From: a virus
Direction: 5' to 3' (one strand)
Virus record (IMG/VR): IMGVR_UViG_3300042905_004854
Span: 1-36,953 of that record
DNA: 36,953 nucleotides
Part shown: positions 32,644-36,611 of the stretch, piece after piece
How the letters are laid out: each line of letters starts with the position of its first letter
How positions within the stretch are numbered: the first letter of the stretch is position 1
Notes under the pieces: model-generated
The model's database searches: none
The model's input: only the letters and a program-made list of their open reading frames with translations
Told to the model about the DNA's origin: nothing
Made by a program: the position numbers and the translations under genes

Positions 32644-32714
32644 TTCCTTCGCTAGGATTCGAACCTAGAAACAGAGATCCAAAGTCTCCAGTGTTACCGT
32701 TACACCACGAAGGA
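32644..32714 (-). tRNA. tRNA-Gln(TTG)
   Basis: Acceptor TCCTTCG/CGAAGGA, D arm with AACGGTAA, anticodon stem GGAGA/TCTCT around loop CTTTGGA (anticodon TTG, codon CAA), T arm CTAGG-TTCGAAT-CCTAG. Discriminator A; CCA is not encoded (flank ATTT). Its 5' end overlaps the methyltransferase stop codon region by 15 bases, and its 3' acceptor strand provides the ribosome site of the co-chaperonin gene. Confidence 0.93.
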
Positions 32715-33260
32715 GTGAACCTTGGCACAATAATTGTTCATTATGATACCAGAGGCCGTACCAACATTGATGCTTCTCACAGAACCATACTGGGGAATGT
32801 AAAGAAGATCATCACACATATCTAGAACGTTTGCAGGAACACCGATTTGTTCCTGACCAAAGATCATAATATAGTGCACATTTGGGTCAAAGTCAAATGC
32901 ATTTATGTCTTTTGCTTCACGTACATTGTCAATTCCCAATAGTTTAACTTTGCCTTCATGCTTGGAAACAGTTTCTTCAATGTAGGAGCCGAGATTGTCA
33001 ATGCTTTTGACATGACGGAAGTTTGTGTAGTGATGAGTACCGACAGTCCCTCGCCTATCGTATTTCTTATTCCCATAGATTACTACTTCTTTCGCCAGAA
33101 ACGCATTAGCATTCCGTATAATGGTTGCAATATTAAAATCGTTACCAATGTTGCAGCAGATAACAGAAAAGTTATGGCGCTTAGTCTCAAGATCAGCTCT
33201 GATCGCGTCATCTGTCCAATATTTATAGTGATCAATAAGGTTGCGGGTTTCCATATTCAT
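32700..33260 (-). CDS. SpoU/TrmH-family RNA 2'-O-methyltransferase
   Basis: The 186-residue protein is a SPOUT-class enzyme that transfers a methyl group from AdoMet to a ribose 2'-OH. The motifs are NIGNDFNIATIIRNANAF (motif 1 with the conserved Asn/Arg), MIFGQEQIGVP (motif 2, with Gly and Glu) and SVRSINVGTASGIIMNNY (motif 3, forming the trefoil knot). Length is close to the minimal SpoU domain. The gene runs 15 bases into tRNA-Gln, and its ATG overlaps the speD-like stop as ATGA. A tRNA target is plausible from context but unproven. Confidence 0.85.
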   Translation of the reverse strand: MNMETRNLIDHYKYWTDDAIRADLETKRHNFSVICCNIGNDFNIATIIRNANAFLAKEVVIYGNKKYDRRGTVGTHHYTNFRHVKSIDNLGSYIEETVSKHEGKVKLLGIDNVREAKDINAFDFDPNVHYIMIFGQEQIGVPANVLDMCDDLLYIPQYGSVRSINVGTASGIIMNNYCAKVHSFVV

Positions 33261-33652
33261 CCAATATTTCCATACCCCATACCACGAACAAAGAAATGTT
33301 CTTCGTGGCGATTAAAACCAAAGCATTCTCTTGCATAATCAAGAACAATCATCTTGTCAAATTTATTGCAGGAGTATACATCAAGAGTAATGAAACGGCT
33401 TGGTTCGATTGAATGGATTTGAATACCACTTTCAATCAGAGGAACCCAAGCACTGACACCAAGTTTATCGGGATAAAGTTCTTTTCCATCTTTTGTAGGG
33501 CCGTGAATGACAATAGGCTGACTCATGCGGGTCATACCGATCTTATCAACAACTCGCTCAAGGAAGCGATAATGTAATTCTAGATCATCTGCTGCACCAA
33601 CACGACAATTATACATATCCAAATAATAGGAATAACCAAATGGCTTACTCAT
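33257..33652 (-). CDS. speD-like: AdoMet decarboxylase-like pyruvoyl enzyme (SpeD fold)
   Basis: The 131-residue protein has the bacterial SpeD layout: GVSAWVPLIESGIQIHS then DVYSC. Glu74-Ser75 match the self-cleavage site that makes the pyruvoyl group, and His80 and Cys95 lie +5 and +20 from that Ser, the same spacing as Ser63/His68/Cys83 of the Thermotoga enzyme. The normal role is decarboxylation of AdoMet for spermidine. SpeD homologues occur in cyanophages, and some phage members are reported to have changed substrate to arginine or ornithine. The substrate here cannot be told from sequence by eye. It overlaps both neighbours by a few bases. Confidence 0.75.
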   Translation of the reverse strand: MSKPFGYSYYLDMYNCRVGAADDLELHYRFLERVVDKIGMTRMSQPIVIHGPTKDGKELYPDKLGVSAWVPLIESGIQIHSIEPSRFITLDVYSCNKFDKMIVLDYARECFGFNRHEEHFFVRGMGYGNIG

Positions 33653-34362: not shown

Positions 34363-34511
34363 TTTTTACAACCAGTTTTTTCCTCTTTTACAAAAAAACT
34401 GTATATGGTTCCAACTATTACTGAGTAAATTACTATGGAAGCAAATATGCTCAAATAAAAAAACAGTATGATTGGATCATACCAATGATCAAATCTTTTC
34501 TTTTCTTCCAA
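34359..34511 (-). CDS. 50-residue membrane protein with TTG start
   Basis: Reading from TTG 34511, the peptide is MEEKKRFDHWYDPIILFFYL, then a continuous hydrophobic span (SIFASIVIYSVIVGTIYSFF, about residues 21-40) and VKEEKTGCKN. GGAG lies nine bases before the TTG, inside the end of the phosphatase gene, which it overlaps by 23 bases. The clear span and ribosome site support it; the non-ATG start lowers confidence. Its last codons form part of the TTGACA box. Confidence 0.5.
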   Translation of the reverse strand: MEEKKRFDHWYDPIILFFYLSIFASIVIYSVIVGTIYSFFVKEEKTGCKN

Positions 34512-35247
34512 GTTTTAATTCTCCATTTTCATCTTCATAAACAAAAGAACAATTTTCTTTCTCTGTCCAGCAACCGCAATTTATGTAAAGAGTTTCATTT
34601 TTAGTTGTTATTTTTGGATCATGTATATGACCACAGATAACACCATCATAGCCTCTGTCTTTTGCATACTTGCAAATAACTTCTTCAAAACTCTCTATGA
34701 ACTGAGCTGCCTTCTTTACTTTTATCTTTATGTATTTTGAGATTGACCAATATTTCATTCCCAAAATTTTTCTAAACCAGTTAAATACTTCATTTATTGA
34801 AAGCAACCATTCATAAGCCCAATCACCTAATTTGTATAGATATGAACTTATTGGATATTTTGTCAACAAATCAAATTGGTGACCATGCATCACCAAATAC
34901 TTTTTTCCATTTGAAGAAACGTAATCAATTCTTTCATGTAGGAATATATTGCCAAAAAGTTCATGGTCAATGAACTTTGATAAAAATTCATCATGGTTTC
35001 CATATACGTAATGAATTTTTGTTCCTTTGCGGGACAATTTTAAAAAACATTCAATTATTTCCACATGCAAATTTTGTTTTTCAAAATTCATTGAAAATGC
35101 TTGACGAAATCTCCATATATCTATGATGTCGCCTACCAAAAACATTTCGTCAAATTCATTTTCTTTTAAAAAAGAAAGAATTGTTTTTGCTTTTGCTTTT
35201 TTAGAAGCAAGATGTAGATCAGAAATAAAAACTGTCTTATAATGCAT
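34489..35247 (-). CDS. LpxH-like UDP-diacylglucosamine pyrophosphatase (metallophosphoesterase)
   Basis: The 252-residue protein has all metallophosphoesterase motifs: SDLHLA (Asp10, His12), GDIIDIW (Asp40), GNHD (83-86), MHGHQFD (His121, His123) and CGHIHDP (His207, His209). Motif wording and length match LpxH (about 240), which cleaves UDP-2,3-diacylglucosamine to lipid X in lipid A synthesis at the inner membrane. The central insert with helices (about 130-190) fits the lipid-binding lid. A phage copy could alter lipid A flow during infection; another phosphatase substrate is possible. It follows tRNA-Glu by 27 bases. Confidence 0.75.
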   Translation of the reverse strand: MHYKTVFISDLHLASKKAKAKTILSFLKENEFDEMFLVGDIIDIWRFRQAFSMNFEKQNLHVEIIECFLKLSRKGTKIHYVYGNHDEFLSKFIDHELFGNIFLHERIDYVSSNGKKYLVMHGHQFDLLTKYPISSYLYKLGDWAYEWLLSINEVFNWFRKILGMKYWSISKYIKIKVKKAAQFIESFEEVICKYAKDRGYDGVICGHIHDPKITTKNETLYINCGCWTEKENCSFVYEDENGELKLGRKEKI

Positions 35248-36158: not shown

Positions 36159-36611
36159 TTATATATTTAAACGACTTCTTTTAGCAATGAGAGCTGCAAG
36201 CCCAAGCATTGCAAGGACTCCGGGTGCAGGAACATCAGGAGGCTCACAATCGCTTCCATTAACTTCGGTAGAAGCCTGCATACAGACGCTCTCAATGCGA
36301 TCATGGGCAACAGGAATGAACATATCCTGATCCACGGTCTGAACGGTCATTACGAGCCTTCCACCGTTGAAGATCTTATGGACCCAAAATCCATCAAAAG
36401 ATCCCATAAAGTATTTATTTGCAGTTTCAGGATAATTTGAAACCGTATTGTTTGAAATAGATTCGTTGATGGGCTCTGTGATCGTAAATTGAGTATCGAA
36501 CACAAGTCTATCGGTGAAAGTGACTTCCTGATAAATTGCTCCCTGATACTCGGAGCGAGAGAAAGTCTGACCGTTTGAATTATAGATTGTAGATGTAGGG
36601 ACGATAGCCAT
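36159..36611 (-). CDS. Phage protein with PEP-CTERM-like sorting tail
   Basis: The 150-residue protein begins MAIVPTSTIYNSNGQTFSRS and is beta-rich with no signal peptide. Its last 24 residues have the PEP-CTERM layout: VPAPG, a hydrophobic helix (VLAMLGLAALIA) and a basic end (KRSR). In bacteria this tail is cut by exosortase at the membrane during export. A Cys pair (VCMQ, SDCEPP) precedes it. The start at 36611 lies one base after the previous stop. The tail may be a captured host sorting signal or simply a membrane anchor. Confidence 0.6.
   Translation of the reverse strand: MAIVPTSTIYNSNGQTFSRSEYQGAIYQEVTFTDRLVFDTQFTITEPINESISNNTVSNYPETANKYFMGSFDGFWVHKIFNGGRLVMTVQTVDQDMFIPVAHDRIESVCMQASTEVNGSDCEPPDVPAPGVLAMLGLAALIAKRSRLNI

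Follow-up and report, generated by a model that had tools for sequence, protein, structure and literature searches.

A PEP-CTERM-type tail on a family of phage proteins that lack a signal peptide

In the accepted model of the PEP-CTERM/exosortase (EpsH) system, proteins cross the inner membrane by means of a signal peptide, and the tail then keeps them at this membrane for exosortase to act on (PMC1569441, PMC12188702). The enzyme is taken to work on the periplasmic side, once export through the signal has occurred (PMC1569441). The LPXTG/sortase proteins have an analogous C-terminal motif, helix and basic end, an analogy made in PMC1569441 itself. They depend on another enzyme family and belong to another envelope, and no LPXTG motif is present in the family described here. 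LPXTG/sortase surface proteins of Gram-positive bacteria include phage-borne ones. The T4-like superinfection-exclusion membrane proteins, such as Imm, are by description comparable to our family in being small, encoded outside the structural block and probably located at the inner membrane; we know of no sorting motif in them. Among titles and the opening parts of abstracts we found no report of a phage-encoded PEP-CTERM protein, a negative that is weak evidence of novelty since most subscription journals lie outside this coverage. The PEP-CTERM passages of PMC12642866 concern host genes.

The window analysed here comprises all 36,953 bases of an IMG/VR virus record. Close to its end lies a gene whose product carries a tail of this kind, with the following parts:

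36159-36611, minus strand: phage protein gene of 150 codons (150 aa), ATG at 36609-36611 and stop codon at 36159-36161, known from its open frame and translation and from 33 family members in viral records
36276-36611, minus strand: conserved N-terminal domain, residues 1-112, without signal peptide (alignments A3 and A4)
36219-36233, minus strand: VPAPG motif, residues 127-131, the proposed exosortase recognition motif (pN/pS 0.122; host-tail HMM)
36183-36218, minus strand: hydrophobic stretch VLAMLGLAALIA, residues 132-143 (12 residues), from its hydrophobicity and a helix at 132-148 in a low-confidence model
36162-36182, minus strand: basic C-terminal end KRSRLNI, residues 144-150; such residues follow the motif throughout the family

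The tail, PPDVPAPGVLAMLGLAALIAKRSRLNI, runs in the order PPD, VPAPG, VLAMLGLAALIA and KRSRLNI, with acidic charge before the helix and basic charge after it. A sequence-only reading had the coordinates and the tail right; to this we add that the minus strand carries the gene and that A stands in place of E as the third residue of the motif. The three-part plan of P-x-P motif, hydrophobic stretch and basic end is that of the PEP-CTERM/exosortase system (TIGR02595, PF07589, PF09721; cf. PMC1569441), from which the family differs in being phage-encoded, in its missing signal peptide, in having mostly P-A-P for P-E-P and, for the window protein, in scoring below the curated cut-offs.

Profile and protein scans of viral contigs, together with DNA patterns that supplied two further members, gave a family of 33 rows including the window (31 distinct), with identities to the window protein ranging from 99% down to 39% in alignment A3; another scan of the viral contigs with A3 added no new records. 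All 33 members keep motif, hydrophobic helix and basic end, as the sequence-only reading had suggested looking for in homologues, and the third motif residue is A, S or E. The motif itself is VPAPG in 24 rows, VPAPS in four, and VPSPG, VPSAG, VPEPS, VPEPT and IPSPS in one each. It is followed by an uncharged hydrophobic stretch, 12-14 residues long in 32 rows and 17 in the other, and by two to five basic residues in every case, the basic end being weak in L022-L024. We regard L096 and L303 as the most telling members, as they carry a textbook P-E-P (VPEPS and VPEPT, respectively) on the same N-terminal domain. L303 and L265 are counted in the 33-row tallies and left out of the 31-row HMM and selection tests below. 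No cellular relative of the N-terminal domain was confirmed among 50 pattern matches from a scan of genome contigs with alignment A1, and in 298 genomes of the candidate host class the sole match (E 0.009) covered just the tail of a host protein that has a signal peptide; a cellular origin of the domain was rejected on these two results. Two queries of INPHARED returned no credible relative of the family protein.

Whether the tail deserves its name depends on the model used to score it. The window protein reaches 14.4 bits against PF07589, below the cut-off of 20.7, and TIGR02595 (NCBIfam) is absent from its listed matches. The curated profiles are centred on P-E-P, and the window protein falls below their cut-offs because its third motif residue is A. 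Among 22 members scanned singly, five passed the TIGR02595 cut-off of 16 (L029, L031, L032, L091 and L303) and six had no NCBIfam match at all (L022, L034, L038, L093, L096 and L265); the PF07589 cut-off was passed by no member among the scores shown, the best being 18.9. With E values up to 10 allowed, PF07589 was matched by 11 and TIGR02595 by eight of the 12 members of alignment A1. A score below threshold, which the earlier reading had named as grounds for giving up the PEP-CTERM assignment, is therefore true of the window protein on PF07589 and untrue of the family on TIGR02595. We also built an HMM from 54 PEP-CTERM tails of the candidate-host genomes G025 and G027 (55 places, less L152, which has no motif). 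On this model the window protein scores 16.3 bits. Among 7121 other ORFs taken from 13 phage records the highest score is 6.7 bits, and among 1550 family proteins with shuffled tails, none of which reaches 10, it is 3.7 bits. The window tail is more than chance, and the reading of it as a PEP-CTERM-type tail is supported. Of the 31 members searched, 29 were listed and 21 exceeded the best decoy ORF; the ten that did not are L022-L024, L034 and L091-L096.

The window's failure to reach the curated cut-offs is also what would be expected if the helix were an ordinary tail anchor, fixing the protein to the inner membrane, with the PEP-CTERM likeness arising by descent from host tails or by convergence; a C-terminal helix and a basic end would suffice for this. 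A membrane anchor requires hydrophobicity alone. Over all pairs of the 31 rows, VPAPG has a pN/pS of 0.122, compared with 0.326 in the domain, 0.665 in the linker, 0.585 in the hydrophobic stretch and 0.700 in the end, and in eight close relatives the respective values are 0.000, 0.139, 0.283, 0.443 and 0.729; these ratios are descriptive, since the motif contributes only five codons and the rows are related. Several synonymous codons are used at each motif position. By this measure the motif is the most constrained region, whereas the hydrophobic stretch and basic end drift, unlike those of an ordinary anchor, and the homologues do not vary in the way that had been named as evidence for one. 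Moreover, the motif varies only among the host-used forms P-A-P, P-S-P and P-E-P, one VPSAG apart. As selection appears to keep the motif and not the helix, we consider a simple anchor improbable.

The predicted absence of a signal peptide is the truly odd feature of the family. According to Haft et al. 2006 (PMC1569441), 97% of PEP-CTERM proteins have a signal site. In the window there are 18 in-frame codons before the ATG and no more, and the most hydrophobic 12-residue stretch between the upstream stop and residue 40 has a Kyte-Doolittle mean of 0.65. Over the same span, 28 of the 33 rows, the window included, have no 12-residue stretch of 1.6 or above; the five that do are L026, L027, L028, L041 and L265. 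A signal hidden by a wrongly chosen start was ruled out, as only 0-43 codons separate the upstream stops from the starts. The original observation that the protein has no N-terminal signal is thus borne out by both the hydrophobicity scan and the short upstream frame. The signal-bearing PEP-CTERM proteins of Phycisphaerae, such as L191 with the tail VPAPGAVALLGIAGLIASRRRR, have tails nearly identical to those of the family and differ in an unrelated N-terminal domain and in the signal, with a hydrophobic N-terminal stretch in 31 of 34 host frames, a count in which starts were picked for maximal hydrophobicity, favouring signals, and which includes one wrong-frame read (L191, 338 codons).

The most likely reading, to which we give an even chance, is that the tail acts as a decoy or tether, engaging the exosortase of the host at the inner membrane. 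In this model the tail would insert into the inner membrane and the VPAPG motif would be recognised by the host exosortase, so that during infection the protein would occupy or redirect the enzyme, possibly changing the set of host proteins or matrix that reaches the surface, for example against superinfection or by loosening the matrix. The lack of a Sec signal on the N-terminal domain leads us to favour a decoy or tether over a conventional exported surface protein. The same property also counts against it, as a protein without a signal cannot reach an exosortase at the periplasmic face in the usual way (PMC1569441). The window's scores below the curated cut-offs, the ten of 31 rows under the best decoy ORF and the weak basic end of L022-L024 weigh against it too.

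The arrangement of one record bears on this question. The 119,654-base phage record L265, which holds a family member, encodes two other tail proteins:

L265:7417-8046, plus strand: tail protein with a hydrophobic N-terminal signal
L265:10603-11280, minus strand: tail protein with a hydrophobic N-terminal signal

One of these signal-bearing proteins directly precedes the family gene. This gene order, with the family gene immediately behind that of a similarly tailed, signal-bearing protein, argues for a decoy or tether. It would also suit surface display, in which export would proceed without a classical signal peptide (at a late stage via holin-type lesions, or alongside a signal-bearing partner) and the protein would then be processed by exosortase and placed on the cell surface or in the matrix. 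Signals on other tail proteins of these phages are consistent with such display, as is the charge pattern of the window protein, acidic before and basic after the helix, which favours the normal PEP-CTERM orientation with the domain outside. However, the window has no room for a signal peptide and an export route for such a protein is not known, and we therefore consider display rather unlikely, if less so than a plain anchor.

A decoy or tether would need a host with an exosortase, and the tail itself offers a clue to that host. PEP-CTERM regions are more alike within species than between them (Haft et al. 2006, PMC1569441). Of the 54 tails of G025 and G027, 42 have A at motif position 3, eight T, four S and none E; of 39 tails of G024 and G026 (40 places, less L227), 34 have E there and none A, a sample of high-ranking places that leans to P-E-P and in which some tails have V, I or L at position 3 with P-E-P just behind. 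A single bacterial class thus holds two dialects, P-A-P in G025 and G027 and P-E-P in G024 and G026. When scored with dialect models built from 39 tails each, the window reaches 16.9 bits on P-A-P and 6.2 on P-E-P, and 23 of 31 family rows score higher on the former. The P-A-P dialect of the phage tail is used by two of five planctomycete genomes related to these phages through a protease. The phage tail probably follows the dialect of the likely hosts, Phycisphaerae-like planctomycetes that have exosortase.

The protease in question is an exported, subtilisin-like enzyme of the phage record G005 (L049:3257-4660, plus strand), which ends in a GC-type dockerin (NCBIfam, 34.3 bits, cut-off 29). 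Its relatives in genome contigs number five, and all five are planctomycete MAGs by title (Planctomycetota, Phycisphaerales, Phycisphaeraceae twice, and Phycisphaerae). Homologues with 57-62% identity are present in L022, L025, L039 and L091, all four of which also carry the family gene, with the family proteins of L022 and L025 sharing 91% and 90% identity with that of the window; L265 has a Dockerin_1 protein and a prepilin-like protein. These protease, dockerin and prepilin-like genes make a planctomycete the probable host of the window's relatives, and from the relatives' genes we infer the same for the window itself. A comparison of DNA gave no CRISPR or other link between the window and a host, the listed rows being tRNA-gene matches; as about two candidates were scored per genome, spacers could be missed in it. 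The gp46 and terminase proteins are nearest to those of cyanophages (46-55% identity); a cyanobacterial host was set aside, these being old core genes. Exosortase is over its cut-off in all five protease-related MAGs; for the candidate class the count is 98 of 101 sampled genomes, compared with one of 14 controls; PEP-CTERM matches are over cut-off in the same five MAGs and in none of the 14 controls. The proposal that the tail points to a host with an exosortase is therefore supported for the probable host class, with the host itself deduced from relatives. No exosortase gene was found in any of the 23 phage records searched, all possibly fragments; a phage-encoded exosortase was rejected on this basis, and the enzyme would be the host's.

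The surrounding genes indicate that the family belongs to T4-like tailed phages and does not stem from contaminating host DNA. A T4-like large terminase is present in six of the 17 family records searched (G004, G007, G423, G425, G426 and G429), besides G005, the 177-kb record that supplied the terminase query. The window has no T4-like terminase; it has tail-protein, RuvC-like and HNH-type phage matches, with long tail-protein-like ORFs on the plus strand, and its bases 1-24000 have no near DNA relatives among INPHARED phages. The family gene of the window sits among small accessory genes, including:

34489-35247, minus strand: phosphoesterase related to phage proteins annotated as UDP-2,3-diacylglucosamine hydrolase
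33257-33652, minus strand: S-adenosylmethionine decarboxylase gene
32700-33260, minus strand: SpoU-type methylase gene

This position, and that of the G005 gene, which on reading the translations of its T4-like blocks lies outside the terminase-capsid-tail block, speak against a small structural protein of the virion, its tail buried in the particle or meeting the membrane at injection. Such a role would fit the N-terminal domain, for which two AlphaFold2 models of poor quality (mean pLDDT 44.5 and 49.4) predict mostly beta-strand with low confidence, and PF22021, an FnIII-type domain, gives a weak hint (E 0.026 at best); the single match of the family to solved structures is at chance level (E 1.1). 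Overall, we consider a virion component highly improbable.

PEP-CTERM-type tails are not confined to this family. A VPAPG-type DNA pattern occurs in 24 stretches of viral contigs (23 matches analysed, 16 of them C-terminal) and a VPEP-type pattern in at least 120 (among those listed, 88 matches analysed, 74 C-terminal, 66 of these with a hydrophobic N-terminus), counts that mix phage, provirus and host DNA. Tail-bearing proteins, their origins unsorted, may be common in viral records. Further examples are:

L265:6712-7401, plus strand, and L255:9202-9903, minus strand: similar-looking pair of 230 and 234 aa
L264:454-861, minus strand; L255:4873-5298, minus strand; L259 and L268: short phage proteins of 136-142 aa with VPAPG-type tails, unrelated to the window family

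Both proteins of the pair have a lysine-rich N-terminal part and an internal hydrophobic helix, with tails ending IPSPSGIYLFAMGGMFGSRNRS and VIPAPSALAFLLMFPVMRRRRR, and they may form a further tail-bearing family that has a signal anchor. The short L264 protein (136 aa) is from a record with a T4-like terminase, as are the L265 tail proteins (the two signal-bearing ones and the one with an internal helix); L294 has a further tail-bearing protein and a terminase match of only 32%. The phage protein encoded at L265:12473-13558 (minus strand) has an N-terminus resembling that of type IV prepilins and exceeds the cut-offs of both PF07963 and TIGR02532.

More tentatively, and at somewhat less than an even chance, we suggest that the family is a virus-encoded exosortase antagonist, a PEP-CTERM mimic without a signal acting on the host enzyme, among a wider set of unrelated phage tail proteins (variously signal-bearing, short or with an internal helix) through which viruses systematically use bacterial surface sorting. 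Exosortase has few direct experimental handles. A compact phage ligand that has the recognition tail and no export signal would separate recognition from export, and a natural phage ligand of this enzyme might serve as a probe or inhibitor. The tail would also link uncultured T4-like phages to planctomycetes through the sorting dialect of the host, which could become a signal for host prediction.
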